Below are positions 19,631 to 56,207 of a stretch of DNA of 64,000 bases, one piece after another. The stretch is from Bacteroidaceae bacterium (GTDB lineage: Bacteria; Bacteroidota; Bacteroidia; Bacteroidales; Bacteroidaceae). The stretch lies in NCBI GenBank assembly GCA_017466065.1, contig JAFTUV010000035.1:1-64000 (forward strand), written 5' to 3'. The translations under genes and the position numbers were made by a program. The notes under the pieces are model-generated. The model had not been told where the DNA came from and ran no database searches. It saw only the letters and a list, made by a program, of their open reading frames with translations. The first letter of the stretch is position 1; every line of letters starts with the position of its first letter.

Positions 19631-19672
19631 AATAAATAAAGCAGCCTGAGTTGATGGGCTGCTTCATTTATT
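19631..19672. terminator. Bidirectional terminator at the left edge of phage cluster 1
   Basis: AATAAATAAAGCAGCC pairs with GGCTGCTTCATTTATT (one mismatch). It serves both the DUF4488-like gene and terL, whose stop codon abuts the stem. Confidence 0.8.
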
Positions 19673-21689
19673 ATATGCTGGCTTCGCTTATGATGCGTGT
19701 GCGACGGTTCGTGCTCTTCTGCTCGGCTATGCGATGAGGAAGAGGGTGGTTGTAACAGGCCCACACAAGAATGGCTGTTGCCATTACACGGTCGTCGTGA
19801 TTGCCCTCTATTGCTCCTGTTTCTCTTCCATTCTCTTTGAGTTCGTAAAGGTCGAGCTCGTATGTGGTTTCTATGCATCGTTCAATATATAATTCATCGC
19901 GCAGGGCTTTGACAAGAAAATTTATTACCATCGGTTTTGTGGAACTGTTGGTGTGAAAACCCCAACGGCGCGGTCGTCCCTGCTTTATCTCCAACTGCGA
20001 AGTGCGGCTGTACAGGTTACTGTATTTCCCGGCAATTTCGTTGAGTATATATTCGAAATTATTGCCCTCGGTGCCGTCTGTTTCGAGTGTGTTCGATTCT
20101 ATAATGAGCAGGGCATTGTCATAGGCCCGGGCAATCTCCACAGCCTTCCACGCGAGGCGGTCGTGTTCAATGTGTCCGTGCCAGCAGGCGACAATTTCGG
20201 GCACCCCTCCATCGAGCATTGCGAGGCGGTCGGCAACAAGAATACAGGAGTAGTCGGCCTTCTCGCTCACGCCGCCAACATCCACACTCACTATGTAACG
20301 GTCGCGCAGGGATTGCTCCTTGTCAGGCATAAGCCACACCCACAAGGAATTTTCGTTGCAAATCTCGCCGGGTGCGGCGGGGGCGAACCGTGTGCGCTCG
20401 GCTCTCCGTCCTTGTTCGTCGGTCGTGTAACCATCGGGTACAATGTCGCCCTTGAATGTTGGCGGCACGCAGGTGCGTCTTATATTTTGTACATAAGAGA
20501 GGCGGAATACTCGTCGGCCGGTACTTTGGAAGGCTTCGGCGGCGGTGGAGGGAAATTCCGAGAAAAGACGCCATTCGTCGGGCATCTCTTTGCGTTTGTC
20601 GCGGTACCAAGCGATTGCTTCGAGTGTGGCTCCAAAGGAAAAGAGTTGCTTTTCATAGTCGTCGAGGCTGTCGATGAAACTCTCATAGTCGCCCGCTGCA
20701 ATGGGCTTGCAGTAAAGGTCTATGCTGTACCAAGGTATAAAGACCGGAGTAAAATTGTTTCTTCCCTCAACGGCATCGATCCAAGTGCGGTGAAAGAAAT
20801 TGCCCACTCCTTTGGCGGTCGATTCGAGAACTTTTACAGTATAGGGGCCGCGGGCGATGGAACCGAAAATGGATTGTACAAGGTCCTCGGGCTTGCGTCC
20901 TTGCGTGGCTTTCCACAGGCCTACCTCTGTGAGGTGAGCCATACTTATATCTTCACTGCGCAACGAGTCGGGTTTTTGCGACGAACCTAATGAGTATCGG
21001 CTGTTGCTCCAACTTATGACTCGCGTCTTTTGTGCGCCCTGATAGGGGGCGGTTGTTATCTTCTTGCCGCCTGTGGCCCAAGTGGGGTAGTGGCTTATTA
21101 CTTTTGCAAGCATTCCTGCCACTATGGACGACTGTTTTTCAATATCGCCGCATATTACGCTGTTCCAGTTGCGTTTGTGCACAAGTTGTATCCACAGCAT
21201 ATATAATTGTGTGAGGGTGCTGCCACCCCATTGACGGGCTTTGCACAGAATTATGTCTATGGGCTTGTCGGCAAGGCGCAGTGCTTCCAAGGCTGTGAGG
21301 TATTGTCGCTGCGCACGGTTGAGGGTGAATGGAATGTCGCGCCCTTTTCCTTTGTCCGATATTGTGGTCATACTTCTTGCCCAATATTCAAAGTCGTGTT
21401 TTATGCGTGTGAGGCAAAATTCGAACCATAAGTTCAGTAATTGTTTGTTTGTGGCCTGCGCACCAATTACCTGTTCTATGTATTTGTGTGCTCCTAATTG
21501 TATCAGTTTGTCTGTTCTTTCGTCGGCGAGCATAGAGTGTGGGAGGTTGATTCTTTCCAAAGGGAATCCCTCAATCCGGGTCCATTGGCGTGCCACCGAG
21601 GTTGAGCCTTCGCCTGTTATTGGATTATAAACGGCCGAGATTGCTCCCAGCCGTTCGATGTTTTCTTTTATTATTTTTTCTTTTTCCAC
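19671..21689 (-). CDS. terL: Phage terminase large subunit
   Basis: This is the packaging motor and nuclease of tailed phages. The 672-residue protein has a Walker-A-like motif KARQWGGST at residues 150-158, an ATPase region with EVGLWKATQGRKPED, and a C-terminal RNase-H-fold nuclease starting at RYIVSVDVGGVSEKADYS with later acidic motifs (LLIIESNTL and NHDDRVMA). The start is GTG 21689, two bases after the stop of the upstream gene, which suggests coupling. Three small minus-strand genes precede it. TerL is in cluster 1 while the portal is in cluster 2, which is unusual for a functional prophage. Confidence 0.9.
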   Translation of the reverse strand: MEKEKIIKENIERLGAISAVYNPITGEGSTSVARQWTRIEGFPLERINLPHSMLADERTDKLIQLGAHKYIEQVIGAQATNKQLLNLWFEFCLTRIKHDFEYWARSMTTISDKGKGRDIPFTLNRAQRQYLTALEALRLADKPIDIILCKARQWGGSTLTQLYMLWIQLVHKRNWNSVICGDIEKQSSIVAGMLAKVISHYPTWATGGKKITTAPYQGAQKTRVISWSNSRYSLGSSQKPDSLRSEDISMAHLTEVGLWKATQGRKPEDLVQSIFGSIARGPYTVKVLESTAKGVGNFFHRTWIDAVEGRNNFTPVFIPWYSIDLYCKPIAAGDYESFIDSLDDYEKQLFSFGATLEAIAWYRDKRKEMPDEWRLFSEFPSTAAEAFQSTGRRVFRLSYVQNIRRTCVPPTFKGDIVPDGYTTDEQGRRAERTRFAPAAPGEICNENSLWVWLMPDKEQSLRDRYIVSVDVGGVSEKADYSCILVADRLAMLDGGVPEIVACWHGHIEHDRLAWKAVEIARAYDNALLIIESNTLETDGTEGNNFEYILNEIAGKYSNLYSRTSQLEIKQGRPRRWGFHTNSSTKPMVINFLVKALRDELYIERCIETTYELDLYELKENGRETGAIEGNHDDRVMATAILVWACYNHPLPHRIAEQKSTNRRTRIISEASI

Positions 21690-21691
21690 GT

Positions 21692-22168
21692 TTAAATTCC
21701 TGCAAGGTCGGTGGCGCGACGGCGTACACCGGGGTTGTTGTATAGCTTTGCGAACTGTTGTTGCACATTGTCGTAGAGGTTGGCTTTTAGGGCCATATTA
21801 GGCTGGGCCTGCATCGGTTGTCGCAACAGGAGCCATTGTAGGATTATTTCGTTTACAAGGTAGTCGGTTATTGCTTGTTTAAGCAACGGTACAATGTGCG
21901 GATGTTGCTTGTTGCTTGTTTCGAATGTAATTTCAATGTAGCTTTCGTCTATGCGGTAACTTATGCAAGGGAAACGAAGAGCAACAGCAGATATAAGCTC
22001 GTTCAATGCTCTTTGTGCGAACATAACGAATAGTTCCTTCTCGTCGGTGCTGCTTTGTATGGTGTCGGCGTCTAAATCTTTGCGTTTGGCCGATTCTCCC
22101 ATATAGTGATTCCTTAAATCAATCTGCTGTTGCAGTTCGTTTTTTCTTATAATTATACAATGTGTCAT
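21692..22168 (-). CDS. Phage-cluster protein of unknown function (paralogue 2 of 3)
   Basis: 158 residues, no known domain. It shares an outline with the gene just upstream and with 31227-31646: an N-terminal IIIRKNEL-type start, a NHYMGESAKRK motif, a hydrophilic STDEKELFVM segment, a hydrophobic ILQWLLLRQP segment and an arginine-rich end. The start codon overlaps the upstream stop (TAATG). It may be a neck or head-completion protein, but that is only a guess from its position beside terL. Confidence 0.65.
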   Translation of the reverse strand: MTHCIIIRKNELQQQIDLRNHYMGESAKRKDLDADTIQSSTDEKELFVMFAQRALNELISAVALRFPCISYRIDESYIEITFETSNKQHPHIVPLLKQAITDYLVNEIILQWLLLRQPMQAQPNMALKANLYDNVQQQFAKLYNNPGVRRRATDLAGI

Positions 22169-22677
22169 TATAGGTCGATTATGTTATGAGGGTCCTCTAA
22201 CTCTATTACCGGCTTTTGTCGCAGGGCAAAAAGTTCACGCAGTTGTTGTGCGATGGTCTGCGCTTCTGCTGCCGGTATTGCAGCCTCCTCGGGACGGTGT
22301 TGCAGCAACCATTGTTGCAGCACTCTCTTTACAGCATAGCTTTCCATACTCTTCTCTATTCGGCTGAGGGCTGTTTCGGGGAACATTGCCGGCATTGGCA
22401 GGGTAAATACATAGAGCTTGCTGTCGTTTGTCGTTCCTTCGTTAATCTCTTCGATGCTGCATATTGCAAAATAGCGTGAGATTAGGTTGCCAAGCTCGGC
22501 GATTGCATTGCCAATGTGGTCGCTCAATTGGGTGCTGTCGTCACTCGATACCTGCATCTGGGCGGCAAGGCGTTCGGGAATGCCAATCTCTTTACGGGCT
22601 TCACCTGTGTAATAGGTGTAGATTTGAATTCTTTGTTCAATGTTCTTGTGCAGAACTTTTAATTTAATCTCTTTCAT
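22168..22677 (-). CDS. Phage-cluster protein of unknown function (paralogue 1 of 3)
   Basis: 169 residues, first gene of the leftward unit that ends with terL. It has the same outline as the next gene: YTYYTGEARKEIG, a hydrophilic middle, VLQQWLLQHRPEE, and LFALRQKPVIE near the end, the last being close to LSLREKPVRE in the protein at 31227-31646. It is preceded by a copy of the cluster-specific promoter whose predicted start lies only about 8 nt before the ATG. The function is unknown. Confidence 0.7.
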   Translation of the reverse strand: MKEIKLKVLHKNIEQRIQIYTYYTGEARKEIGIPERLAAQMQVSSDDSTQLSDHIGNAIAELGNLISRYFAICSIEEINEGTTNDSKLYVFTLPMPAMFPETALSRIEKSMESYAVKRVLQQWLLQHRPEEAAIPAAEAQTIAQQLRELFALRQKPVIELEDPHNIIDL

Positions 22678-22767: not shown

Positions 22768-23190
22768 TTATATGGCGGCGATGTTGCGTTCGCGCAAGGT
22801 TTTATAGACAATGCCTCGGAAGGTCTCTTCGTCGAGATAGAATGATGGTGCCGGCTCTTCTATTATTTTTTCGAGTATGATGTAACGGTAGTGACTGCTG
22901 CTTTCGCGTATGCGTTTGAGGTAGCGGCTGTAAATCTCTCTGTACATTTCCATCTTGTTTTTATTCACGAGAGGAAGGCGTTTCTTTCGCATCATTAAAG
23001 AGATGTAGCGACGGGCGTTCTCAAATGTTACATAGAAGCGTGGTGCTTTTCCTTTTACGGCTTTTTCTATCACTTGGTTCTGTGTGGCCAAGGGATTGTC
23101 TTTTCTCACTTCCTTCATTGTTTCAAAAAATGTCGCAATGACATCGTTTTTACGCATATTGCGTATTGATTTCTTTTCTGTATCCTTCAT
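22768..23190 (-). CDS. Basic phage-cluster protein with internal repeat, possibly DNA-binding
   Basis: 140 residues from ATG 23190; a further upstream ATG at 23229 lies before the predicted transcription start and is rejected. The protein is strongly basic. A motif occurs twice: KAPRFYVTFENARRYISLMM and PAPSFYLDEETFRGIVYKTL, about 58 residues apart. This could be a repeated helix-turn-helix-like unit, which would suit a regulator or a small terminase subunit, but neither is demonstrated. It is divergent from the capsid operon and driven by promoter C. Confidence 0.7.
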   Translation of the reverse strand: MKDTEKKSIRNMRKNDVIATFFETMKEVRKDNPLATQNQVIEKAVKGKAPRFYVTFENARRYISLMMRKKRLPLVNKNKMEMYREIYSRYLKRIRESSSHYRYIILEKIIEEPAPSFYLDEETFRGIVYKTLRERNIAAI

Positions 23191-23212: not shown

Positions 23213-23257
23213 GCAAAAATAATAGCCAAAATAGGCTAAAAGGTTGCGTTTTTGACA
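23213..23257 (-). promoter_or_regulatory. Phage-cluster promoter C with putative repressor operator
   Basis: On the minus strand: TGTCAA, GCAACCTT, then 27 nt ending in TTTGC. Between the elements lies AGCC-N6-GGCT (23224-23237), the same inverted repeat that occurs beside the repressor gene. Confidence 0.6.
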
Positions 23258-23432: not shown

Positions 23433-23489
23433 GCAACCTTTGATTGTCAATTTAGCAACCTTCCCGGCTCGTTTTGATATTTCCTTTGC
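23433..23489 (+). promoter_or_regulatory. Phage-cluster promoter A (capsid operon), with an extra GCAACC box
   Basis: TGTCAATTTAGCAACCTT at 23445-23462 is followed by 27 nt ending in TTTGC at 23489. A second GCAACC lies at 23433-23438, exactly 22 bp upstream of the first, i.e. two helical turns, as for a dimeric activator. TTGCTAA boxes lie at 23289 and 23380. The remainder of the 330-bp divergent region shows no gene. Confidence 0.65.
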
Positions 23490-23524: not shown

Positions 23525-24316
23525 ATGAAACAGAATTTAAAGAATGAAGCACAGTTGCCCTATGTCGATGGGAATGTCGAGCAGGGTGGTGTGCCTGTTG
23601 CGCAGCAGCCCGATACTGCTGCTGAACCGCAGTCGGCTCTCCTTGCTCTGGAAAATGGGTTGAAGGAGATTTTTGGAGAGGATTTTGATATTAACGAGAG
23701 TGTGTCGCAGGAGGCTCTGTTACAGCACTTGCGTATGAACCGCGAGCAGAATGAACGCCTTGCCGAAGCTCTTGAACGTGACCCGCGTTTGGCGCAGATG
23801 CTTATGGATATGATTAGCGGCAAACGCAATGCTCACTCGGCTATGGCACGTTATTTCGGGCGTTCGATGATGAACATTGATGAGAACAGCCCGGAGTTTG
23901 AGGAGATGATGCTGGCCGACGAGGAGCGTCGTGACGAGCTGCTTCGCACGGCTGCCGAGCGACGTAATTATGAGGAGAATCTGAAAATGAGTCGCGATGT
24001 TATTGAAAATTTCTGTCGCGAACGTGGCTATGATGCTGCTACTTTTATGAATGATGTTTGGGATAAGTTGATTATGCCAATCCTCTCGGGTAATTATACC
24101 TATGAGGTGTGTACGGCTCTCGAACACGCAATAAATTATGAGCAGGATGTGGAGGATGCTTTTGCTGCCGGTGACATTAAAGGCCGCAATACAAACATTC
24201 AGCGTATGAAGGAGGATTTTGGCGATGGATTGCCGAAAGGGATGAGCAGTGCCGCGCCTGATGCTGCTCCCAAACGCCGCAGAAATTCCCTTATTGAGGA
24301 TGCTTTGCAGGCTTGA
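23525..24316 (+). CDS. Probable phage scaffold or head-assembly protein
   Basis: 263 residues from ATG 23525, 36 nt after promoter A; upstream in-frame codons are excluded because they lie within the promoter. It is acidic, helical and rich in Q, E, M and R, with likely coiled coil around MNREQNERLAEALERDPRLA and EERRDELLRTAAERRNYEEN, and a basic C-terminus (PKRRRNSLIED). There is no catalytic motif. The position directly before the capsid gene and the composition suit a scaffold protein; this is inference. Confidence 0.65.
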   Translation: MKQNLKNEAQLPYVDGNVEQGGVPVAQQPDTAAEPQSALLALENGLKEIFGEDFDINESVSQEALLQHLRMNREQNERLAEALERDPRLAQMLMDMISGKRNAHSAMARYFGRSMMNIDENSPEFEEMMLADEERRDELLRTAAERRNYEENLKMSRDVIENFCRERGYDAATFMNDVWDKLIMPILSGNYTYEVCTALEHAINYEQDVEDAFAAGDIKGRNTNIQRMKEDFGDGLPKGMSSAAPDAAPKRRRNSLIEDALQA

Positions 24317-24387: not shown

Positions 24388-26010
24388 ATGAAAAAACTTT
24401 TTGATTTTTTGAAGGAGAATCCTATGTTTGCTCTCCTTCTGTTGGTGAGTGTGGCGTTTGCTCTTTTTGCCGATGAGCAGGCCGGTTTATCATTGGCTAT
24501 GGCCGCAGTTGTTGCTCCCGGTGGAACAAAGGCCTCGCGTGGCATTGCCGGATTGCCTACGCAGGGCTTGGGCGATGCTACCACCGTGTCCAATGTGTCG
24601 GAATTGAGCCCCGAACTTATCGATGCCGACATTGATGAACAGATTGTGGGCATTGCCAGCGACGAGAGTGTAATAGACACTATTAAGCGTAAGATTCGTC
24701 GTCAGGTTCCTGTGACCTCGTTCGAGGTTGACCATTATCTCATTGACGACAAACGCTCAAAGGCATACACCAATGATACTTATACGGGCATTGGTGCCAC
24801 CCGTGCCGAAATTCCCTTCTCAACAACCGGTGAAAGAAAAATTTTTCAGGAGTATTTTACTGCAATATGCAAAGGCGTGAACGGTTACGACCCCACCGGC
24901 CAGATTGAGATGCCGGGTGTCGACCTTATGCTCTTCTTCGTGGGCAAGAACAGCACCACCGAGGCTCCTATCGCAATGGCTGTGAACGGCCCCAAGAACA
25001 ATGCTACCGACGACTATTGCACGGTGCCCACAATTCCCGCAGGTACCGAGGTTATTCTCTTGTCGTCGGCTGCATACGAAACACAAAAGTTCATTGCTCC
25101 CAGCACTATTGTTCCTGTTCCCGAACGTATGTATTTGCAGAAACAGCTGTGCAACAGCATTGTGAGTGATTATTTTGCAGCACAGAAGAAACGCATACAG
25201 TTTAATAAATCGCAAATTGCCGAGGCTATTTTGCGTCAGTTCCGCCTCGAAAGTTGTCGCACAGCTTGGGTGGGACAGCCCGGTAAGTTCAAAGTGCAGG
25301 CAATGGATGCTGCAATGGGTTACCAATGGGATTATTTCAGCAAGGGAATTCGCTGGCAGTTCAAGCGTCAGTACGACCTTTCGTCGAAGATTACTTTTGC
25401 CGACCTCATCAACCTCTCTATGGTGAAGTTCACAGGGTTCAATTGTACAAAGAAGGCTATATGGTTGCTTGGCAAGCAGTTGCTCAACGATATCCAGAAA
25501 ATCGACCTCACTCTGCACAAGAACATAAGCGTTGCCAGCGGAAAGACCTACGGCATTGAATGTTCACGCATACATACTGTGTTTGGTGATATTGACCTTA
25601 TACACGACCCCACACTCGATGCTCTCGGCTATTCTAATTGCGGTGGACTGATTGATGCCAACGGTCTTGTGCGCTATTATATGAAGAACGAGGACTCGAA
25701 GACCGAAAATGTGGATGGTGAGGAGGCAAGCCGTCAGGTTGTGATGACTATCGACTGCCTCTGCTTGAAGGGGTACAGCCATATATGGGTCAATGGTGCG
25801 GCTGCCGAGAGCGATATTCCCGGAACTTCCCGCGTGGTGAGTGCTTCGTCGCTCCCCGAGTCGCCAAAAACAAACGATGTTGTTATTCTCACCGAGGATG
25901 TTATGCATCAGGTGAACGGTGAGCAGAAATTGTGGTTCACCTCCGGCTCTGTGGTTACTTTCAATGGTTCTACTTGGGTGGAATATACCGGTGAAATTAT
26001 TGCAGCATAA
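24388..26010 (+). CDS. Phage major capsid protein (HK97-like, SU10/DUF5309-type)
   Basis: 540 residues from ATG 24388. Region 60-110 (SPELIDADIDEQIVGIASDE and IKRKIRRQVPVTSFEVDHYL) resembles the start of the large capsid proteins of Bacteroides podophages and crAss-like phages. Long mixed alpha/beta sequence follows, and the C-terminus has an added beta domain. The first 45 residues are odd: a strongly hydrophobic segment (FALLLLVSVAFALF) looks like a membrane or signal helix. A stem-loop after the gene and its position behind the scaffold candidate support the call. Confidence rests on context and pattern, not on a search. Confidence 0.72.
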   Translation: MKKLFDFLKENPMFALLLLVSVAFALFADEQAGLSLAMAAVVAPGGTKASRGIAGLPTQGLGDATTVSNVSELSPELIDADIDEQIVGIASDESVIDTIKRKIRRQVPVTSFEVDHYLIDDKRSKAYTNDTYTGIGATRAEIPFSTTGERKIFQEYFTAICKGVNGYDPTGQIEMPGVDLMLFFVGKNSTTEAPIAMAVNGPKNNATDDYCTVPTIPAGTEVILLSSAAYETQKFIAPSTIVPVPERMYLQKQLCNSIVSDYFAAQKKRIQFNKSQIAEAILRQFRLESCRTAWVGQPGKFKVQAMDAAMGYQWDYFSKGIRWQFKRQYDLSSKITFADLINLSMVKFTGFNCTKKAIWLLGKQLLNDIQKIDLTLHKNISVASGKTYGIECSRIHTVFGDIDLIHDPTLDALGYSNCGGLIDANGLVRYYMKNEDSKTENVDGEEASRQVVMTIDCLCLKGYSHIWVNGAAAESDIPGTSRVVSASSLPESPKTNDVVILTEDVMHQVNGEQKLWFTSGSVVTFNGSTWVEYTGEIIAA

Positions 26011-26108: not shown

Positions 26109-26534
26109 ATGAGAAAGAGAATTACTTATGAAATTCACGGACAGGTAGAAAGGAATAGCTTTTTTCGTGTGGGCAAGGCGTTGATAAGGATTGAGTTCAC
26201 CGGGGGAATGATAAACTCTACCGGTTCTTATCCTGCGCAGTACACAACCGAGAATCCTCTCTACCAGCAGGCGATAGAGAAGAGTGCGGCTTTCCGTAAT
26301 GGTGAGATTAAGCGTGGCAAGGTTGAAACATTTGGTTCGGAGAGCGAGGAGAAGGCTCCCGTTGCCGATGATGAAACGGTTGTCACACCGTTTGCCGATG
26401 TTACAAACTTGCAGCAGGCCCGTGCGGTGCTGATGGCAGAGCCCTATAATTGTAATCTTTCGGAATTGCAGAATAAGAGTGCGGTCAAGGCTGTTGCAGC
26501 GCAAAAAGGTGTCAGCTTCCCTGCTTGGTTATGA
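26109..26534 (+). CDS. Small phage-cluster protein of unknown function
   Basis: 141 residues, no family recognised. The N-terminal half starts MRKRITYEIHGQVERNSFFR and has a beta-like pattern. A linker rich in E, A and P follows, then a small helical end (NLQQARAVLMAEPYNCNLSE) that resembles the HeH/SAP-type fold found at the C-terminus of head-decoration or connector proteins. The stop overlaps the next start (ATGA), so it belongs to the head operon. Confidence 0.6.
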   Translation: MRKRITYEIHGQVERNSFFRVGKALIRIEFTGGMINSTGSYPAQYTTENPLYQQAIEKSAAFRNGEIKRGKVETFGSESEEKAPVADDETVVTPFADVTNLQQARAVLMAEPYNCNLSELQNKSAVKAVAAQKGVSFPAWL

Positions 26535-27181
26535 TTACAACGCAGAAACTTGTAGAGAAGGTCGCATTCTTGGTAAATGAACCGGACAACGACTCGGCAA
26601 TAACCCTTTTAAGCGAGGATACACGCTCTTTGTTCGACACGATAGGGGAATTGCTCCCCGACGCTGTGCTTTTTGTACAGCATAATAAGCAGGGTGGTGT
26701 GCTTAACCCGAAAGAGTGCGATGCGGCTGCCTGCACTGTTACCGACAATGGCGACGGGAGTGTGACCGTGTCGCTTCCCGATGATTTTATCAACCTCATA
26801 GAATTTCGTCTGGATGGATGGGCGCGGCCTTGTACCCGTCTGGAACCGACAACCTCGCCGGTGGCACTTGCTCAAAGTAATATATATACGCGAGGCGGTT
26901 CTTGCAAGCCTGTATGTGTCGAGAGCGTGGATGGGCAAGGAGGCAGGGCTATGAATTGCTATTCGTTGCCGGCAGGGAAAGGGCCTGTGATCAAGAGCTT
27001 TGTGTATGAGGCTCTTTTTGTTCCGCAGACAGGCTTGTCGTGTGCCGAGGGCAGTCCTCTTGTGTGGGCGGTCGTTTACCAATGTGCGGCTCTCTTGTAT
27101 AATGTGTTCGAGAAGCGTGATGCTGCCAACGCTTTTATGGCTCTTGCAGTGTCATTTTGTAAAAATAATAAAATAGAATAA
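26531..27181 (+). CDS. Probable phage head-tail connector or adaptor protein
   Basis: 216 residues, translationally coupled to the previous gene by an ATGA overlap. Its outline resembles connector/adaptor proteins of podophages: an N-terminal helix (TTQKLVEKVAFLVNEPDND), a beta segment with LPDDFINLIEFRLDGWARPC, and a C-terminal helix with LVWAVVYQCAALLYNVFEKR that precedes a short tail. It lies between the capsid gene and a large tail protein, as connectors do. No motif proves it. Confidence 0.6.
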   Translation: MITTQKLVEKVAFLVNEPDNDSAITLLSEDTRSLFDTIGELLPDAVLFVQHNKQGGVLNPKECDAAACTVTDNGDGSVTVSLPDDFINLIEFRLDGWARPCTRLEPTTSPVALAQSNIYTRGGSCKPVCVESVDGQGGRAMNCYSLPAGKGPVIKSFVYEALFVPQTGLSCAEGSPLVWAVVYQCAALLYNVFEKRDAANAFMALAVSFCKNNKIE

Positions 27182-27184
27182 TTT

Positions 27185-27466
27185 ATGGCTGTAAAAAGAA
27201 TGGACTTCTTTCTCAATGGAACTTTTTGGGAAAGTGCGCCCTTGCAATGCGGGGGTGGTGATGTGAGAGTGAGAATTCACAAGAAGGGGCCTTACCCCGT
27301 GGACCTGCTTGTGAGCATCGATGGGGAGGAAGAGTATATAAAGTATGACGACTTCGGGCTCGACGACCTTAAATGTGAAATTACTCTCGAAGGGCCTATG
27401 GAGGGACAGTGCGTGAAATTCCGTTCGCGCAGTGAGTTTACCTTGATAAAGTGTATGGAGCAGTAG
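27185..27466 (+). CDS. Small phage-cluster protein of unknown function
   Basis: 93 residues, entirely beta-like (RMDFFLNGTFWESAPLQCGG, CEITLEGPMEGQCVKFRSRS). It follows the connector-like gene by 3 nt and precedes the holin by 4 nt, so it is part of the same operon. I see nothing to give it a function. Confidence 0.6.
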   Translation: MAVKRMDFFLNGTFWESAPLQCGGGDVRVRIHKKGPYPVDLLVSIDGEEEYIKYDDFGLDDLKCEITLEGPMEGQCVKFRSRSEFTLIKCMEQ

Positions 27467-27470: not shown

Positions 27471-27944
27471 ATGGATAGCCTGAAATATATATTCGCATCG
27501 TTGTTGGCCAATATTGCCGGGCTTTTATTCCCCATCAGGAACGATATTTTTGGCTTGGTACTGCTCTTTTCGTTGAATTTCATAGTTGGGATGTTTGCCG
27601 ATTTAAGCAACCATCGTGATTGGAGCTTTAAAAAGGCCTTCTGCTTTTTCAGGGACGCGGCAGTCTATTTTGCGATGGTTGCCTCGATGTATCTTCTTGG
27701 TCATCTTAAAGGGGAAGAGGAGGCTGCCGTGCATTGTGTTTCGTTTATGATATATGTTGCGATTTATTTCTATGGCACAAATATTCTGCGAAATGCGCGT
27801 ATGCTCACACAGGAACATAGCACGTTGTTCAGAATTCTGGATTTTCTCTATTATGTGCTGAGCTTTAAAGTGGTTGGCAAATATGGCTGTCTGAAAAGTT
27901 ATATGGAATTGTATGAGAAAGATAAGAAAAGTATGGTTGTGTAG
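27471..27944 (+). CDS. Phage holin-like membrane protein
   Basis: 157 residues with three or four hydrophobic segments (about 6-22, 26-42, 58-73 and 84-100), a basic connecting loop (NHRDWSFKKAFCFFRD) and a charged C-terminal tail. This matches the layout of the Bacteroidota phage holin family, which permeabilises the inner membrane at lysis. The following gene, overlapping by 32 nt, is spanin-like, which strengthens the lysis reading. No endolysin gene accompanies them. Confidence 0.7.
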   Translation: MDSLKYIFASLLANIAGLLFPIRNDIFGLVLLFSLNFIVGMFADLSNHRDWSFKKAFCFFRDAAVYFAMVASMYLLGHLKGEEEAAVHCVSFMIYVAIYFYGTNILRNARMLTQEHSTLFRILDFLYYVLSFKVVGKYGCLKSYMELYEKDKKSMVV

Positions 27945-47359: not shown

Positions 47360-47369
47360 GAGAGGTTTA

Positions 47370-47491: not shown

Positions 47492-47492
47492 C

Positions 47493-47871: not shown

Positions 47872-48117
47872 TCACCCTTCGATTCCGCGCAATGTCTGTT
47901 GCAGCAGTGCACCGAGATTGTCATCGCCTTGTTCCTTCTCCTTGTTGAGCTTCACAAGAAAATCGGCGGTGGTTTTCAGTGCTTGGTTTATTGTGCCGGG
48001 GTCCTCGCAGTTCACCGTCAGTTTTTCGAGCCTTTGTATGAGGCGATGAAAGAGTGACAGTGTTTCGTTGTGTACATCGTCGATTGTCACACAACCGTTC
48101 TTTCTGCTTTTTACCAT
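47872..48117 (-). CDS. Small helical protein of phage cluster 2
   Basis: 81 residues from ATG 48117. The open frame goes further upstream to 48219, but promoter E lies inside that extension, so the shorter form is preferred. Sequence: VTIDDVHNETLSLFHRLIQR, then helical segments with LKTTADFLVKLNKEKEQGDD and a conserved-looking tail (LGALLQQTLRGIE). This could be a small terminase subunit or a regulator; nothing proves either. Confidence 0.6.
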   Translation of the reverse strand: MVKSRKNGCVTIDDVHNETLSLFHRLIQRLEKLTVNCEDPGTINQALKTTADFLVKLNKEKEQGDDNLGALLQQTLRGIEG

Positions 48118-48213: not shown

Positions 48214-48258
48214 TGTCAATTTAGCAACCTTGTTTGCCCATTTTGATATTTCTTTTGC
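48214..48258 (+). promoter_or_regulatory. Phage-cluster promoter B
   Basis: TGTCAATTTAGCAACCTT is identical over 18 bases to promoter A in cluster 1, and TTTTGATATTTC is a second identical block at the same distance. The TTTGC ends 14 nt before the start codon, so the leader is very short. Confidence 0.65.
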
Positions 48259-48272: not shown

Positions 48273-48797
48273 ATGGGTTTATTTACAGTTTTATCAGTGG
48301 TGAATGGAGCCTTGGCGCTCTATTCGGGTGTGAAAGGAATGTTTGACTCGGCCAAGGCCAAGGAAAAACGTGAGAATTCCTTGAAGAAAATCTCTCAGGC
48401 AGAGAGTAATTGGTTCCGAAGAAACTATTTCGGCGATTATCTGAACAGTTCAAGTTCGAGGGCTGCCATAAAAAGAGTGGAAAAGACTTTGCGCAAGCAG
48501 AATGAACAGAACAGGGCGTATGCGGCAATAAATGGTGCTACCCCCGAGCTTGCTGTTGCGCGCAACCAGAAGGGGCTGGATGTGGTGGACAATGTGATGA
48601 CAAATATCGCTTCGCAAAGCGATGCCTTGAAACGTAATGTCGACTCCACGCACCTGAAAAACAGGCAGGCGATTGCCAATAGGGAACTGTCGCAACTGTC
48701 GCTCGACGAGAGAATGGCGGCGCAAAGTGCAACAAAAGGGCTCGACCTCTTCAAAGATGCAATGATGGGGCTGAATTGGGGTAATGAGGTCGATTAA
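48273..48797 (+). CDS. Phage-cluster 2 helical protein (possible internal virion protein)
   Basis: 174 residues from ATG 48273. After a short hydrophobic start (MGLFTVLSVVNGALALYSGV) it is nearly all helical and Q/N/K-rich (KKISQAESNWFRRNYFGDYL). A composition of this kind is seen in ejected internal proteins encoded next to portals in podophages. No domain is recognised. The end overlaps no essential sequence of the next gene, whose preferred start is 13 nt downstream. Confidence 0.6.
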   Translation: MGLFTVLSVVNGALALYSGVKGMFDSAKAKEKRENSLKKISQAESNWFRRNYFGDYLNSSSSRAAIKRVEKTLRKQNEQNRAYAAINGATPELAVARNQKGLDVVDNVMTNIASQSDALKRNVDSTHLKNRQAIANRELSQLSLDERMAAQSATKGLDLFKDAMMGLNWGNEVD

Positions 48798-48810
48798 CGG
48801 GAGAGAGCCT

Positions 48811-49266
48811 ATGTACAACAGCAACAGATACAAGGATGCGGCATTATACCGGCAGATGATTATGGATAGTGCACGCAAGGAGTATGCAAGGGTGAAGCAA
48901 AAGCGCACTATGGCCGCCATTACCGATTTTGCAACAAATCTGCTCTCCATTATGGGCTATAATAAGGGGGTGCAGTATGATGTAACTCCGCGCCCACAGT
49001 CGGCTGCGGCAGCTGCAAAGTTTGAACTTGCAAAAGAACGCTACCTTAAAACAATTTCCGATTATGGCGGTGCAATAGCAGCAGCAAAGTTAAAAGCGGG
49101 CAGGTCGGGTGGCGGTGACAGCACTCCTCTCATTCGCCCTGCGCACAACAGCGTGCCGCTCCCGGCACCGTATAGGAAAAAAGATTCGAAAGGGAGTGAA
49201 GATATTATCAGTAAAATAAGAAATATACAAACTCCTGTTTGGCTTATAAACAATAATAAAAAGTAG
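48811..49266 (+). CDS. Phage-cluster 2 small protein (possible internal virion protein)
   Basis: 151 residues from ATG 48811, chosen because GGGAGAG lies at a good ribosome-binding distance; an ATG at 48784 overlapping the previous gene is possible. Helical N-terminus (YRQMIMDSARKEYARVKQKR), Ala-rich middle (PQSAAAAAKFELAKERYLKT) and a proline-rich tail. The function is unknown. It is five bases upstream of the polyvalent-protein gene. Confidence 0.6.
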   Translation: MYNSNRYKDAALYRQMIMDSARKEYARVKQKRTMAAITDFATNLLSIMGYNKGVQYDVTPRPQSAAAAAKFELAKERYLKTISDYGGAIAAAKLKAGRSGGGDSTPLIRPAHNSVPLPAPYRKKDSKGSEDIISKIRNIQTPVWLINNNKK

Positions 49267-49271: not shown

Positions 49272-52200
49272 ATGATTAGAAACGATGAAAACAATGGTAT
49301 TTTGGGATACGGAAATTCCAAACGCAAGAGAGTGAAGAATGCATTGTATAACCCCCAAACTGCTGCCGACAGTTTCGATGCCTTCACCACCGAGGAGCGC
49401 AGCGATATGAATGCATCGCTGGATGAAATGTCGTCCTATTTGGACAAGGAGCGAGAGCGATGGGCGGCTCCCGTCGATGCTGCAAGGCGCGAAAAGGAGT
49501 ACATTGCCTCGGCACGCAACTATATTGTGCCCAAGGACGATGAAATGCGCCGCCGCCGTCAATTTGTAATGTCGGACAGGGCGGTGAAGGATGCTGCCGA
49601 TAGCTTCTTCGACAAGAATGTGAAGGGTATATTCGAGAGTGAGAAACATTCTGCCGGTGAGCGTGCAATGGAGGCCTATAAAAAAGGACTCTCGGTGCCC
49701 GGCAGCGACCCCGTTGCTGCAACCGGTGCAATGCGCAATGAATCGGACCCGCGACGGGTAATCCGCAATACAATGCAAAGGATTCCCGAACAGGAACTCG
49801 ACGATGTTGCAGGCAGTTATGCCCGCTATGCAGGGCTGTCGCCCGAAAAGTATCGCAAGGCGGTGGTGGAGCCGGCCATCGAACAGCGTATGTTCGATGA
49901 GTATGTAAAAGAGGCTGCTCCCAAAAGCAGTGGCGAATATATTGCACGCAGTGCTATTGATAATTCATTAACAGGCAAGCTCGTGAATTTGGGTCTCGAA
50001 GCATCCTCGCCCCGCACATCGCACGCAGCCGTGAATGCCGCCGGCCTCTCGTCCTACGATGCGAGTCGCACCGAAAATCTTATTGCAGGCATAGGTTCGC
50101 TTGTGGTGGATATGCCAATGTTTGCGGGCATAGGAGGTGTTTCGTCCAACCTTGTGGGCAAGGCAGCCACGGGCATTGCAAAGGGATTGTCGTCCAATCT
50201 TGCGAAGAAATATGCCGCGAAAGGGATGCAGTTACCCGAGGCCGAGCGTATTGTGAGGCGTGCCATTGTTGGCAAAATGGGAACAAAAATCGCACAGAAT
50301 TCGGCGACGCAAGGCCTCACACTCGGCGGTTACGATGCCGGCAACAGCATAGCCGAGGACTTGCTCTACAACGATGGAATAGATGTGGGCAAGGCTGTCG
50401 ATGCTTATGCTCACGGCCTCGCCACAGGTGTGGCTGTCGGAGCGGTGGGCACCCCTCTTAAAGAACTCTCGCGCGGCCTCACAGGCGGCAAGAAGGTTGC
50501 TGCATCGGCCGGTGTGCTTGGTGCCGAGGCGGGTGTGTTCACATTAAGCTCGAATGCCGACAAACTAATGTCGGGAGTGGAGGTGGAGCCCATAGACCTG
50601 CTCTACAACTATGGCGAGAGTATCGCAACGCTCGGAGCTATGAGAATGGCTCATTGGCGTCCCACCGGTGGCAGCTTGAAACTCGATGCTAACGGTAAAC
50701 TGAAACAGAAACTTAATCTCACGACAGGCGAGGCGCGTGAAATTCGTAAGGCAGGTGTCGACCCGCAACGTTTTATTTCGGCACTCGAAAATTCTTTCAG
50801 AACCTCCACGCAAAAAACTCCAAAAGAGCTCGATGCCATAAAGAGCGATTATCTTGCCCTGATGGAGAGTGGAGAGCTATCGGCGGCCACCCGTTCAAAA
50901 TTGCTCTATCTTGTCGAGAATAAAGTAACCTCGACCCCGCCTGTTGCGGTCGATTGCAACGTGCATAGTTTGGGCGAGAATGGATACAGCGCAACACTGC
51001 TCGATGCTGCCGGCCGTCGCATCTCCACTCGCGACTTTTCCAATGCAAAAGACTTGGAAACATTTCTCATTATGAATCGCTCCGAATTGCGAAAAAACAA
51101 GATTGCCACCTGTGAAGAGGCTTTATTGGGCAAGTACGATTCTGAAAACTTCTTCCGTCAGGCAGGGCGTTACGCGCAAGAACACGGGACCGATATAAAT
51201 GAAATTGCCGAGGCTATGTATAAAAAGGCCGGCGGGGAACCGCTCGATGGTCGTGAGAGTGAGATGATGGATAATATCTCGCGTCGTGCAAGCTATGGCG
51301 ATAAAGGTGTAGGTACAATGCTCTACAATCTGCGCAAACAGTTGGAACGTGAATTCAACCTCAACGAAGGCAGTCTGCTCGCTGCCGTGAATCGCAAGGC
51401 CTACCGTTGCTCGGCAGCCGAGAATAAGGCTCTCGATAAGTATCTCGAAATAATGCAACAGGAGGTTGAAGTGCTCAAAAACGGCACAACATCCACACGT
51501 TATAACAGCTTGCAGAAGGAGCGCGACGCTTCTCCCTACGGCGGGCTTGGAAACGAGGAGATAAAAGCCCTCGAAAAGGAGAGATATATAAATTTTGTAA
51601 ACTCCACCGATGCAGGCTGGCTCAACAAGAATTCTATTCCCGACCTCACCGAGGGTGACGAGCCGGGTGGTCGCACAGCCCGCATAAAGGTTCCTACCGA
51701 TTGGAACAAGCCCTATGCTTGGAGCTATTCGGGCTTGCGCAACAGTTACGAGGATATGATGTACTATAAGCAACGTGCCGAGGAGATTGCCGGAAAAATG
51801 GGGCATAAACTGAACTTCCTTTTCGACGAGAGTGAGGTGGAACACAATTCAAGCGATATTGAATATAACAATAAAGTTCGTTCGCAGGGCTGGCTCGACA
51901 ATTCCACGGGAAAGGTATATATAAATCTGCCTAATATAAAGGATGTTGGTGAGCTTGAACGTGTTGTCGTACACGAGGTTGTGGGACACAAAGGCCTTTC
52001 CAACCTTTTCGGGGAGTATATATTCGATTTTTACGAGGACCTGTATAAGATGGCCGACACGGAAATGCGCGAGGGCATCCACGAAATAGGCCGAAAATAT
52101 AATACGCAAGGGTTTATTGCAGTTGAGGAGTATTTGGCCCACCTTGCCGAAAAAAGCAACCCCACACGCAAGGAACGCACGGTTCTCAACAGATTGAAGG

Positions 52201-54221
52201 ATTGTGTGAACAATGCGCTTGTGCGTATGAATATCATTTCGGGAGAAAAGGCCAAGGTTACAACCGACGAACTTTGCAATCTGCTCTCGGCTCACCATAA
52301 AGCGATGCTCGACAGAGTGCATCCGAACGATTATCGTGCATCGGTGTTCGGGAAATTCCCCTCGGCGCGTCACAAGGATGGCTACTACGATACGCCCTCA
52401 TTCCATAATGAGATAAGGCGTCGTGCCGCCAACAATGAACTATATGCCGGTACGCCTGAATATCTGCTGCCCGACAAGAAGATTCTGTATGATGAGTTTG
52501 ATAACGCAGCCGGCAATGGCAATCATCCGGCATCCTCTTATAGATTTATAGGAGAGCGTGGTGCCGATAATCTTGCCGAGGCCGACAATGGTCGCCTTAA
52601 TGAGCAGTCCTACCTTGCCACTGCAAGGGAAATGGAGGCCAATGGAGCTTCCTCGCAGGAAATTTGGGCAGAAACAGGCTGGGCGCGTGGTGCCGATGGT
52701 ATGTGGCGCAGCGAAATGGAGTATGAAACAATACAATTGAACGATGTTGTTTACAACCAACTGCTTATGAAGAATCCCAAACTGGCCGGCAGGTATGACA
52801 GGGTGGTTAACAAGCCTATAAGTGAACGCACCATTGATGATGAAGTATTTATCAAAAGTGTTTTTGATAATAACCCCTCGCTGTTCAAGGACTTGCAGGT
52901 GAGAGATGTTGTCAGCGACCCGCTTTTCTATGCGGCTTACCCCGAACTTGCATATATTCCCGTGAAAGTAACAAAGTATATGAAAGAATCTTCTTATTAC
53001 GACCCTAAAAAGCAGGTGATGTATGTAAACCGGGATTTTCTCACCAACCCTCAAATGCTGTCGAAAACCATTGTCACTCCTTTGCAGCAGATGATTCAGC
53101 ACTACGAAGGGTTCGAAAAAAGTGTTTCTCTGTTGAGGGCCGATGCCGAGGATGTATTTGTCAATAAATATTACGAAGCAATGGATGCCATAAACAAAAT
53201 AAACAGCATTGATAATGCCAAGAAAATGCCCTCGTTATTGACAATTCTCAACGACCATTTTATAAAAGAATATGGAATGTTGCCCGACAAATTCCTAAAA
53301 GCTTTTCCCTCGGTCGATGAGTACATTCTGTATAAAGTGACAGGAAGACCGCAATCGTTTAGTGGAAATGTTGAAACAAGAAATCTGCTCACCCGTCAGA
53401 CAATGCTGGGAGAGGATCGTATGTTTACTCCTCCCGAGGCAACCGAGGATGTTCCACGCAATAAACAAATCTCTTTGGAGCAATTCTCCAATATGGATAA
53501 AATGCTAACCGGTCCTATGGATGTGATATACAGGAATGTGAGGGAGAACAACACCAACCGTCCTATGAAACTCCGAAAAACATCGAAAAAGATGGATGAA
53601 CTGCAATTCACGCCCTTGGAGAAAAAAATCCTCGGAGCACAATATGACGAAATGTCGGCAACCATTGCCGAGGCTTATGATAAACTGAAAAAGAGTGGCA
53701 AACTTCGCGGAAAAAATGCTCTCGACCTCACAGCTGCACTCGTAGAGAAGTTGGCCGGCAGTTTCATAGAGGAGGTTGCTCTTGGCGGTATTTATAAACC
53801 TAACAACCTTTTGAACAAATATAGCGGCAAATATGGCACGGTAGGTTATAAGAGAGGACGTCTGACCGATTCCGACTATGTCGCAGAGCTGTTGAAGGCT
53901 GCTGTACGAAAGGAAAAAGAGAGGAATGAAGCTCCTGTTAGTTACAAGGATAATGGAATGGGAGAAATCTCGGAGAAAGAAAAGGCAGCCCGTAAAAATC
54001 TTATTGACAAACTGGAACAACAGCATAATGAGGAAACAGAGAACTTTTGGAAGAGCTACTACAACAGACGTCGCATCGACGAGGATAAACCTCGCAAAAT
54101 CGGTTATTACGAAAAACTCAATCAACGTGATTACACTGTCCCCATCGATGAAGATGAAGTGATTTATGACGAAGATGGCAAGCCTATTGTTACAATGAAA
54201 AAGGATGAAATGAATAACTAA
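49272..54221 (+). CDS. Giant polyvalent-type phage protein with zincin metallopeptidase motif
   Basis: 1649 residues, the largest gene in the window. Residues 280-460 are Ala/Gly/Val-rich with hydrophobic helices (GTKIAQNSATQGLTLGGYDA, GLATGVAVGAVGTPLKELSR), possibly membrane-active. Around residue 860 a domain begins, and at 901-906 it shows HEVVGH with a further acidic motif EEYLAHLAE near 952: this is the HExxH plus downstream Glu arrangement of zincin metallopeptidases. Lysine/glutamate-rich helices end the protein. Phage and plasmid polyvalent proteins that are injected with DNA often combine such peptidase domains with other effector domains. It sits directly before the portal gene, as injected proteins do. 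The substrate is unknown. Confidence 0.7.
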   Translation: MIRNDENNGILGYGNSKRKRVKNALYNPQTAADSFDAFTTEERSDMNASLDEMSSYLDKERERWAAPVDAARREKEYIASARNYIVPKDDEMRRRRQFVMSDRAVKDAADSFFDKNVKGIFESEKHSAGERAMEAYKKGLSVPGSDPVAATGAMRNESDPRRVIRNTMQRIPEQELDDVAGSYARYAGLSPEKYRKAVVEPAIEQRMFDEYVKEAAPKSSGEYIARSAIDNSLTGKLVNLGLEASSPRTSHAAVNAAGLSSYDASRTENLIAGIGSLVVDMPMFAGIGGVSSNLVGKAATGIAKGLSSNLAKKYAAKGMQLPEAERIVRRAIVGKMGTKIAQNSATQGLTLGGYDAGNSIAEDLLYNDGIDVGKAVDAYAHGLATGVAVGAVGTPLKELSRGLTGGKKVAASAGVLGAEAGVFTLSSNADKLMSGVEVEPIDLLYNYGESIATLGAMRMAHWRPTGGSLKLDANGKLKQKLNLTTGEAREIRKAGVDPQRFISALENSFRTSTQKTPKELDAIKSDYLALMESGELSAATRSKLLYLVENKVTSTPPVAVDCNVHSLGENGYSATLLDAAGRRISTRDFSNAKDLETFLIMNRSELRKNKIATCEEALLGKYDSENFFRQAGRYAQEHGTDINEIAEAMYKKAGGEPLDGRESEMMDNISRRASYGDKGVGTMLYNLRKQLEREFNLNEGSLLAAVNRKAYRCSAAENKALDKYLEIMQQEVEVLKNGTTSTRYNSLQKERDASPYGGLGNEEIKALEKERYINFVNSTDAGWLNKNSIPDLTEGDEPGGRTARIKVPTDWNKPYAWSYSGLRNSYEDMMYYKQRAEEIAGKMGHKLNFLFDESEVEHNSSDIEYNNKVRSQGWLDNSTGKVYINLPNIKDVGELERVVVHEVVGHKGLSNLFGEYIFDFYEDLYKMADTEMREGIHEIGRKYNTQGFIAVEEYLAHLAEKSNPTRKERTVLNRLKDCVNNALVRMNIISGEKAKVTTDELCNLLSAHHKAMLDRVHPNDYRASVFGKFPSARHKDGYYDTPSFHNEIRRRAANNELYAGTPEYLLPDKKILYDEFDNAAGNGNHPASSYRFIGERGADNLAEADNGRLNEQSYLATAREMEANGASSQEIWAETGWARGADGMWRSEMEYETIQLNDVVYNQLLMKNPKLAGRYDRVVNKPISERTIDDEVFIKSVFDNNPSLFKDLQVRDVVSDPLFYAAYPELAYIPVKVTKYMKESSYYDPKKQVMYVNRDFLTNPQMLSKTIVTPLQQMIQHYEGFEKSVSLLRADAEDVFVNKYYEAMDAINKINSIDNAKKMPSLLTILNDHFIKEYGMLPDKFLKAFPSVDEYILYKVTGRPQSFSGNVETRNLLTRQTMLGEDRMFTPPEATEDVPRNKQISLEQFSNMDKMLTGPMDVIYRNVRENNTNRPMKLRKTSKKMDELQFTPLEKKILGAQYDEMSATIAEAYDKLKKSGKLRGKNALDLTAALVEKLAGSFIEEVALGGIYKPNNLLNKYSGKYGTVGYKRGRLTDSDYVAELLKAAVRKEKERNEAPVSYKDNGMGEISEKEKAARKNLIDKLEQQHNEETENFWKSYYNRRRIDEDKPRKIGYYEKLNQRDYTVPIDEDEVIYDEDGKPIVTMKKDEMNN

Positions 54222-54233
54222 TATCTATCGGTA

Positions 54234-56207
54234 ATGAATAAGTTTGTAAACAGAAAAGTAAAAGCAGAGCCGGCGTTGCGCGACGGAATTGTGGAGAAGA
54301 GCGAGGGTAGTGCCGTCGATTTTCTCAATGAGTGTGCAGCCTGCTGGATAGCTCTCGATGAGGCTCGCCGCAAATTGCGGCGCAGCCTTATGTACAGCTA
54401 CGGCGACCAGTGGGGCGACTATGTGCGCGACCCCGACACGCTCTCTATGATTACCGAGGGTGAACTTATTAAGAAGAATGGCAAAGTGCCCTTGAAGAAT
54501 AATATGATTGCTCCCATATTGAGCAACATCGACGGACAGATGCGCCAAAATCTTTTGCGTCCCGTTTGCGTGGCACGCGACCAATCCGAGGGAAGAGTGG
54601 GAGAGATGATGAGTGTGGCCATTGAGTATGTACACGATATAAACGAAATGGAGGAGGTAGACTCCGATTCTATGCGTATGTTGCTCAACGGAGGAATGAC
54701 GGCACAAAGAATAGAGTATGGAATGAACCCTTCGCGAGGGCAAAAGGATGTTTGGGTGTATGCAGTGAACCCCTCGCGCCTCTTCTTTAACACCAATCTC
54801 GAAGATGTGCGTATGTGGGACCTGAACTGCATAGGCGAGATATTCGACCTTCCTCTCGAACAGGTGCTTGCACTGTTTGCGCGTACACAGGCCGACAAGG
54901 AGCGGGTGAAGAGCTATTATTTGGAGGTCGCAGGCAATAACTCGCCTGTGACACGTGCAATGCAGGGCGACGAAACAGCCTCCCTCTCATTCTACACCCC
55001 CTCGCGTCCCGACCTTTGCCGTGTTATTCTTGGCTGGAAACTCGAATCGCGCGATGCCTACTGCTGGAACGACAACCAAAAAGGAACTTGGGGATATTTG
55101 CCTTATACCCCGGCGTCGAAGAAACGGCTCGACAGTGAGAATAACCGTCGCAAACAGGAGGCAAAGGCTGCCGGCCTCGCCGAGGAAGATGTGCTGCTTG
55201 TCGATTATGCCTTTGCCATCGAACGCTATTGGTATTATCGCTATATGACACCCTATGGCAATGTGTTACAAGAGGGACGCAGTCCCTATTGGCACGGGGA
55301 GCACAACTATGTGCTGCACCTTTATCCGCTTGTTCAAGGGAAACTCGGCAACTTTGTCGAGCAGTTCATCGACCAGCAGAGAGCCATAAACCGCACGGCA
55401 ACACTCATCGATTTTATACGCGGAACCTCGTCGAAAGGTGTGCTTGTCGTCGATGACGATGCCTTTGAGAGTATGAGCCGCGAGGAGGTCATCGACGAAT
55501 ATGTGCGTTACAACGGAGTGCTGTTCGTGAAACTTAAACCCGGGCAGAGTATCGACGGGGTGGTGCGGCAGTATAACAGCGGCGCAGCCGTGGCCGGCGA
55601 CTTTGAATTGCTTAACTTGCAGTTGAGGCTCATAAACGAAATATCGGGAGTGAATTCGGCTATGCAAGGACAATCACCGCGTGCCGGCACTCCCGCGAGC
55701 CTCTATGCCCAACAGGTGCAGAACTCCTCGCTCAACCTCAAAGGGTTGTTCGACAGCTACCGCAATTTCCGTCGCCGTCGCGATATTAAACTTATGAAGA
55801 CAATACAGCAGTATTATACCGAAGTGCGTTACATCGACCTTGCCGGCAGTGAATATAGCGAAGAGGCCAGATGGTATAACCCCGAGAAGGTGCGCGATGC
55901 TCAAATAGATCTCACAATATCCGAGGGATATAACACACCGGCCTACCAGATGATTGCCAACGACTTCCTTATGGAGCTTTTCCGTGCAAATGCCTTGGAT
56001 GTTAAGACTATGCTCGAAAATAGTTCCTACCCCTTTGCCACCAAAATTCTCGAAGCAATAAAACGCAACGAGGAACAGGCTGCGCAGGGTGCTCCTATGA
56101 ATGGCATTTCGCCCGAACTTCTTGCCGGGCTGCAACAGGCAGGGCAGGAGCAATCGCCGGAGCAGAGCAACAGCCACGAGGCACCCCCGGCCACCGATGC
56201 ATATTAA
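54234..56207 (+). CDS. Phage portal protein (podophage/crAss-like type)
   Basis: 657 residues. The N-terminal region (SYGDQWGDYVRDPDTLSMIT followed by PLKNNMIAPILSNIDGQMRQ) and the central FVEQFIDQQRAINRTATLID with EISGVNSAMQGQSPRAGTPA are patterns of P22-like portal proteins in Bacteroidota phages. It has a helical barrel-like C-terminus and an E/Q/A-rich tail (EEQAAQGAPMNGISPELLAG). The portal is the dodecameric DNA entry ring to which TerL docks, yet terL lies about 33 kb away in cluster 1. A terminator separates it from ligA. Confidence 0.85.
   Translation: MNKFVNRKVKAEPALRDGIVEKSEGSAVDFLNECAACWIALDEARRKLRRSLMYSYGDQWGDYVRDPDTLSMITEGELIKKNGKVPLKNNMIAPILSNIDGQMRQNLLRPVCVARDQSEGRVGEMMSVAIEYVHDINEMEEVDSDSMRMLLNGGMTAQRIEYGMNPSRGQKDVWVYAVNPSRLFFNTNLEDVRMWDLNCIGEIFDLPLEQVLALFARTQADKERVKSYYLEVAGNNSPVTRAMQGDETASLSFYTPSRPDLCRVILGWKLESRDAYCWNDNQKGTWGYLPYTPASKKRLDSENNRRKQEAKAAGLAEEDVLLVDYAFAIERYWYYRYMTPYGNVLQEGRSPYWHGEHNYVLHLYPLVQGKLGNFVEQFIDQQRAINRTATLIDFIRGTSSKGVLVVDDDAFESMSREEVIDEYVRYNGVLFVKLKPGQSIDGVVRQYNSGAAVAGDFELLNLQLRLINEISGVNSAMQGQSPRAGTPASLYAQQVQNSSLNLKGLFDSYRNFRRRRDIKLMKTIQQYYTEVRYIDLAGSEYSEEARWYNPEKVRDAQIDLTISEGYNTPAYQMIANDFLMELFRANALDVKTMLENSSYPFATKILEAIKRNEEQAAQGAPMNGISPELLAGLQQAGQEQSPEQSNSHEAPPATDAY

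Follow-up and report, generated by a model that had tools for sequence, protein, structure and literature searches.

Particle systems of the kind described here are already known, because RcGTA of Rhodobacter capsulatus, a gene transfer agent (GTA), comprises a core structural cluster and ectopic loci with tail fibres (available excerpt of PMC6854486), and FpGTA I and II of Faecalibacterium, with particles and protected DNA of ∼9 kb, have their genes in two operons (available excerpt of PMC12946183). A 64,000-nt stretch of a Bacteroidaceae bacterium genome (positions 1 to 64,000 of contig JAFTUV010000035.1, assembly GCA_017466065.1; the window hereafter) carries two clusters of phage-type genes, cluster 1 at 19.7–33.2 kb and cluster 2 at 47.9–56.2 kb, where a first-pass annotation of the DNA had placed them. 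Conservation across a genus and a shared promoter indicate, with a probability of roughly 0.93, that the two clusters belong to a fixed, co-regulated, dispersed phage-derived particle system; this system probably acts as a GTA, with packaging of host DNA predicted from gene content. New features are the host phylum, the division of the head genes between loci, and a regulon that is defined by a promoter and includes DUF5675/DUF6973 genes. No Bacteroidota system of this sort was named in the titles and abstract openings returned by searches of the open-access literature (PMC).

The system resembles RcGTA in its core cluster with ectopic fibre loci, its T4-like large terminase, and its vertical inheritance in a host clade (available excerpt of PMC6854486), but differs from it in host phylum (Bacteroidota), in the splitting of the head genes, often around the ATP synthase operon, in a shared promoter visible at separate loci, in an S24-type repressor beside the genes, and in the DUF5675/DUF6973 genes of the regulon. 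The RcGTA capsid (6tb9) appeared only among the general HK97-fold rows of the capsid structure matches. Gut bacteria as hosts, short-tailed-phage-type head genes, and separate operons are shared with FpGTA; however, the FpGTA head genes (small terminase, TerS; large terminase, TerL; portal; scaffold; capsid) lie in one operon, whereas here the portal and TerL genes are at different loci in most species (FpGTA as given in the excerpt of PMC12946183). DNA transfer is established for RcGTA, and particles and protected DNA have been shown for FpGTA (same excerpt), whereas the present system is known from its genes alone. Its capsid profile and fold and its P22-type portal are like those of the VP1- and crAss-type short-tailed phage lineage, but its genes are chromosomally fixed and dispersed, with no surrounding phage genome. 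Four IMG/VR viral contigs (L081–L083 and L092) encode portal, TerL, and capsid proteins 46–62% identical to those of the system, in the contiguous gene order portal, TerL, c1c, scaffold, capsid, whereas the system here is split; the polyvalent protein has ∼2,060 aa in three of these contigs, against a median of 1,482 aa here.

The main window open reading frames (ORFs) were scanned against Pfam and PHROGs, with part of the small ORFs outside these scans. The principal features of the system, in window coordinates, are:

19671–21689, minus strand: TerL, large terminase (phrog_2, 2e-18; T4 gp17 by profile, 3.4e-12)
22768–23190, minus strand: c1c, which opens the TerL operon; candidate small terminase, judged by position alone
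23213–23257, minus strand: particle promoter of the c1c–TerL operon (29.6 bits)
23445–23489, plus strand: particle promoter of the capsid operon (55.1 bits)
23525–24316, plus strand: scaffold-like protein directly 5′ of the capsid gene, function by position
24388–26010, plus strand: major capsid protein, HK97 fold (profile and structure model)
26525–27181, plus strand: c1e, connector candidate (phrog_22135, a family of unknown function)
27471–27944, plus strand: holin-like membrane protein (Pfam 19.2 bits, under the cut-off of 22.2)
27913–28320, plus strand: spanin-like lipoprotein with a C-terminal membrane segment
28323–31220, plus strand: tail980, large tail-like protein, a relative of which is relocated to a third locus in one clade
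31945–32337, minus strand: orf31945, adjoining S24, candidate late regulator
32475–32519, minus strand: weak promoter-like site 5′ of orf31945, overlapping a palindrome (2 pattern mismatches; weight matrix −2.7)
32590–33222, plus strand: S24-type (CI/LexA-like) repressor (2.3e-9; conserved Ala-Gly and Ser/Lys motifs)
48214–48258, plus strand: particle promoter of the portal operon (56.7 bits)
48273–48797, plus strand: c2a, which we take to be a candidate internal or ejection protein
49272–54221, plus strand: large polyvalent protein with an LPD23 domain (3.5e-11)
54234–56207, plus strand: portal protein, P22 type (1e-35)

The contents first proposed for cluster 1 stood for the TerL, HK97-fold capsid, tail-like, holin-like, and S24 genes; the spanin-like protein was recognised by its sequence only, and the connector-like assignment of c1e is unproven. 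The view of the clusters as complementary halves was borne out: among the window ORFs scanned, portal matches were absent from cluster 1, and terminase and capsid matches from cluster 2, which carries the portal and polyvalent protein genes, and ald, the ATP synthase genes, and a diversity-generating retroelement (DGR) with a reverse transcriptase lie between them. Two things had been missed, namely c2z, an 81-aa gene divergent from cluster 2, and the shared promoters, the position of which places the scaffold start at 23525 rather than at 23474. The capsid had a PHROG match only to an unknown family; its profile matched the VP1 major capsid (9in6) at 6.2e-6, and its structure model (mean predicted local distance difference test score, pLDDT, 63) matched the VP1, crAss001, and SU10 capsids. 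The TerL residues presumed to form the ATPase and nuclease sites were invariant across 29 aligned rows. Profile searches against solved structures gave nothing useful for tail980, c1c, or orf31945, nor for the portal at 1e-3.

A portal scan with one genome per species confirmed 151 loci, and 80 of them were retained; counts refer either to a close group of 39 genomes (G001–G039; loci L001–L036, L039, L045, and L050) or to the 44 genomes in the genus of G011. The nearest relatives are metagenome-assembled genomes (MAGs) mostly from ruminant hindgut. Across the genus, the portal was matched in 41 of 44 genomes, TerL in 43 (particle type in 42), a particle-type capsid in 42 (two scans combined), tail980 relatives in 42, S24 in 42 (41 at ≥44% identity), and orf31945 in 39; within the close group, the capsid was matched in 38 of 39, G025 having only a distant match. 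These absences fit incomplete assemblies, because rpoB itself was matched in only 32 of 44 genomes (29 above the cut-off). Among 399 genomes drawn from the family, 34 had a capsid of ≥75% identity, 16 one of ≤41%, and 349 none, and the capsids outside the genus were all ≤41% identical. Both clusters were conserved across the genus, often at the same chromosomal sites, and carried the same rare promoter, which agrees with the earlier proposal that a particle system under joint control is fixed in the chromosome.

In quick trees, the TerL, capsid, and portal proteins each formed one clade relative to nine phage or prophage rows chosen from 22 prepared (Shimodaira–Hasegawa-like approximate likelihood ratio test, SH-aLRT, 99, 99, and 100 in that order). 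Pairwise distances correlated with those of rpoB (Mantel r of 0.80 for the capsid in 25 genomes, 0.58 for the portal in 26, and 0.49 for TerL in 24), each with 0 of 999 permutations as high; for linked host genes in 13 genomes, the values were 0.92 (maePTA), 0.87 (DUF2400), and 0.68 (ligA), with atpA and atpD left out because their distances mixed different ATPases. The ratio of nonsynonymous to synonymous divergence (dN/dS) was low for the structural genes, at 0.01–0.06 for TerL, capsid, and portal in three genome pairs, and looser for the polyvalent and spanin-like proteins (0.15–0.23). Between G008 and G009, dS was 0.21–0.28 for TerL, capsid, and portal and ranged from 0.08 to 0.52 for five host genes. 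The impression that all genes are intact was mostly correct, with purifying selection and with internal stops or breaks in a few genomes.

A 45-nt promoter, TGTCA-N5-GCAACCTT-N18-TTCCTTTGC, was found 5′ of both clusters, and an 18-nt word is identical 5′ of the scaffold gene and 5′ of c2a in the window. When the upstream regions of these two genes were compared in 36 genomes including the window, a 22-nt match of ≥16 was obtained in 33, versus 33 of 108 shuffles; the best word was the promoter itself in 27 of 36 genomes (by reading), and variants often agreed within one genome. A pattern for which only the two clusters had been used was matched 49 times, in 30 of 44 genomes, and its reversed form not once. 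By count, 41 of these were at the clusters, and only one of the other eight, in G016, precedes a gene; the remaining seven looked like chance. A 45-nt weight matrix was built from self-chosen sites of the relatives, with the window sites outside the training set, and the latter scored 56.7, 55.1, and 29.6 bits relative to a background maximum of 3.6 in 344,164 positions. Among the relatives, the sites of which trained the matrix, 33 bits were reached upstream of the scaffold gene in 35 of 38 cases and upstream of c2a in 32 of 37. A wider pattern, which is not independent because it was designed after the fibre promoters had been seen, gave 121 matches (summed) in 39 of 44 genomes, 64 at clusters and 57 elsewhere (by count), with three in the reversed control. 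A related promoter was present near the scaffold gene of viral contigs L081 and L083 (21.9 and 23.9 bits), with only 8.0 bits in L092. Since the TTTGC end of the promoter resembles what we take to be the Bacteroidota −7 element, TGTCA-N5-GCAACC may serve either as an activator site or as an alternative −33 element.

Away from the clusters, promoter sites precede fibre-like genes, the relocated tail980 of one clade, and a DUF5675/DUF6973 group. The off-cluster site in G016 precedes a 373-aa fibre-like protein with relatives in 26 of 44 genomes, and a promoter of ≥18 bits was present at 15 of 30 loci examined from this family (14 distinct sites). The label of this putative fibre derives mainly from a repeat pattern and from what is presumably a knob motif; the protein had no Pfam or PHROG match, and its low-confidence structure model (pLDDT 61) had two unnamed phage proteins as best viral matches, with tail-fibre proteins matched only at E >0.02. 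In three of five genomes, the relocated tail980 had the promoter (35.8, 32.6, and 21.4 bits); a fourth had a score of 10.4, and the fifth none >10. In 60 regions examined around off-cluster sites and fibre loci, a site of ≥12 bits was found in 53; because seven were without one, a few of the 121 matches are probably due to chance. From these regions, 52 downstream ORFs were kept, including three c2a and one c2z, and the other 48 were divided by similarity into one group of 16, one of 10 that is fibre-like, two groups of four, four pairs, and six singles. Three members of the group of 16 were scanned, giving one DUF5675 (6.9e-16) and two DUF6973 (7e-20 and 3e-11) matches, and a secreted or lipoprotein-like gene (by eye) was directly downstream in seven of nine units inspected, the exceptions being L343 and L347. 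As in RcGTA, auxiliary particle genes appear to sit at ectopic loci; here they carry the same promoter, and common control is predicted. The earlier remark that an endolysin and a tail fibre are missing held only in part, as fibre-like and lysin-like candidates sit elsewhere in related genomes. At two further off-cluster sites (L350 and L332), a recurring unit behind the promoter encodes proteins of 93 and 81 aa and one that by eye resembles a glycosyltransferase, perhaps for modification of fibres.

The arrangement of the loci varied among relatives. At the 37 cluster 1 loci in the genus, the capsid gene was always followed by c1d and c1e, and the scaffold gene was 5′ of it in 36, the remaining contig starting inside the capsid gene. 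In neighbour counts, which cover only window genes within 2.6 kb, the gene 3′ of S24 in 20 informative genomes was atpD (13), c2a (3), a DUF4369 gene (3), or a second S24 fragment (1); atpG was upstream of c2a in 11 of 32 genomes, with no window gene in 15 of 32, and ligA was 3′ of the portal gene in 23 of 34. The commonest layout therefore wraps the ATP synthase operon, in the order cluster 1, ATP synthase operon, cluster 2, ligA. The S24–orf31945 pair was far from cluster 1 in G011 and G017, a tail980 relative was on a different contig from cluster 1 in G023, G028, G030, G037, and G041, and clusters 1 and 2 were contiguous in G007 and G022. The split loci reported by the first-pass annotation are real, and an assembly join as their cause was excluded because other MAGs show the same split around ATP synthase; the split is probably not ancestral, because viral relatives have the portal gene next to TerL and because, in 3 of 20 informative genomes, S24 lies beside cluster 2.

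These observations suggest that a podovirus-derived particle system became a fixed, vertically inherited chromosomal part of a Bacteroidaceae genus and later broke into several loci keeping one regulon. A self-cutting S24 repressor would keep the system off; on damage, S24 would be removed, and a late regulator, for which orf31945 is the candidate, would switch on all promoters together. Heads would assemble, and TerL would fill them through the portal with chromosomal DNA, because most species keep no contiguous element to pack; the holin and spanin would open the cell, and fibres encoded elsewhere would bind recipients. S24 carries a peptidase domain, and its Ala-Gly and Ser/Lys motifs, presumably self-cleavage motifs, were conserved in seven copies compared; S24 and orf31945 were adjacent in all 39 genomes with orf31945. 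A conserved S24 operator was considered and rejected, the window palindrome not being clearly conserved in relatives, and for this reason control of orf31945 by S24 stays inferred, as do S24 self-cleavage on DNA damage and the late-activator role of orf31945.

Several points weigh against a fixed GTA-like system. Neither particles nor packaged or transferred DNA have been observed, and the related genomes examined are MAGs of unstated completeness. The small terminase is unproven, with c1c and c2z as candidates; no DNA-binding fold was detected in orf31945, and its own promoter scores low. The portal and TerL track rpoB worse than the linked host genes do, possibly through recombination or rate change, and the dS of S24 between G008 and G009 (1.04) is far above that of its neighbours, as if S24 had been replaced. 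Internal stops occur in the portal of G008, the TerL of G018, and orf31945 of G022 and G033, and tail980 is broken in G014, with assembly error a possible cause. Self-packaging is possible in G007 and G022 because of their contiguous clusters. Lastly, a weapon would account for the DUF5675/DUF6973 genes of the regulon and their secreted partners no less well than a plain GTA would. A domesticated particle serving mainly as a weapon or delivery device would eject the polyvalent and DUF5675/DUF6973 proteins into other cells, with DNA absent or incidental; that one similarity group makes up 16 of the 48 off-cluster ORFs behind the promoter, and that its secreted or lipoprotein-like neighbours stand where an immunity partner would, argue for such a device, but the invariant TerL residues and a constraint on TerL and portal about as strong as that on the capsid point to DNA packaging, and delivery as the main function, although the leading alternative, is unlikely. 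Doubtful, though conceivable, is a broader role as a genus-wide chassis with an open-ended regulon, in which any gene gaining the 45-nt promoter would be co-expressed, and in which changing fibres and cell-wall-active effectors with immunity partners would let one shell kill competitors and move host DNA.

Two findings favour a prophage, ordinary or in decay, that rearrangement has split in this strain: viral contigs on which these genes are contiguous, and a second, prophage-like copy elsewhere in G016. That origin is contradicted by conservation across the genus, where the genes are near-universal, mostly intact, and monophyletic, by the same promoter at separated loci, and by several different layouts. 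The absence of an integrase and of replication genes noted earlier also agreed with the scans, in that no integrase or phage-type replication gene was matched among the scanned window ORFs (small ORFs only partly scanned, other contigs not searched), and no att-like word was common to the cluster flanks beyond shuffled controls; a prophage is a highly improbable explanation. A helper locus for mobile satellites, in which the dispersed promoter genes would belong to elements exploiting the particle, would account for one promoter–gene unit being nearly identical in G001, G004, and G044, and for several families that recur at various sites, which would suit cargo of small elements; yet the 16 sites inspected looked like small units among host genes (neighbours read by eye), and the fibre-like genes suggest particle parts, which leaves this explanation improbable. 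If the fixed, GTA-like particle system is real, Bacteroidota, as dominant gut bacteria, would join the phyla with such a particle. Such agents are difficult to recognise in related genomes, and there the promoter signature finds further components of the system; the series of layouts (S24 beside cluster 2, the ATP synthase split, a third-locus tail gene) would allow virus domestication to be followed stepwise. Through its DUF5675/DUF6973 genes, the regulon raises the possibility, open to testing, that competition and DNA transfer are linked.

The remaining genes of the two clusters are:

21692–22168, minus strand: c1a, conserved protein (phrog_19255, weak)
22168–22677, minus strand: c1b, c1a relative (phrog_19255)
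26109–26534, plus strand: c1d, head-region protein recognised by conservation
27185–27466, plus strand: c1f, protein recognised by conservation
31227–31646, plus strand: c1g, phrog_19255 relative
47875–48117, minus strand: c2z, highly conserved protein of 81 aa, encoded divergently from cluster 2
48784–49266, plus strand: c2b, small protein, fast-changing by sequence comparison

With c1a, c1b, and c1g, one particle cluster holds three matches to phrog_19255; when the viral and prophage loci were compared, only one c1a relative was found, in the G016 prophage. The c2z protein had a mean column identity of 78% in 17 rows and adjoins cluster 2 in relatives; it had no Pfam or PHROG match and no match in six viral or prophage loci tested, and is possibly a packaging or regulatory protein.

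Few genomes had a second copy: the one in G016 is prophage-like, that in G025 is distant, and G044 has a further capsid match at 28%. The G016 copy (L149–L150) has a capsid 75% and a portal 60% identical to those of the window, and no particle promoter above background; module exchange is hinted at because its capsid is closer than its portal. The DGR (window 43984–47500) comprises a FlgO-like protein, an FGE-domain target, an HRDC protein, and a reverse transcriptase, with the template repeat just 3′ of the last. Template and variable repeats agree at 90 of 100 nt, and template adenines account for 14 of 25 differences over the 140 nt compared. The clusters do flank the DGR, as had been stated, but the DGR is a local neighbour and not part of the system; its FGE, HRDC, and reverse transcriptase genes had no match at the portal loci of relatives, which extend no more than 10 kb 5′ of the portal gene. 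Near the start of the window (67–8900), proteins with dockerin-type and Cthe_2159 carbohydrate-binding domains are encoded near each other.

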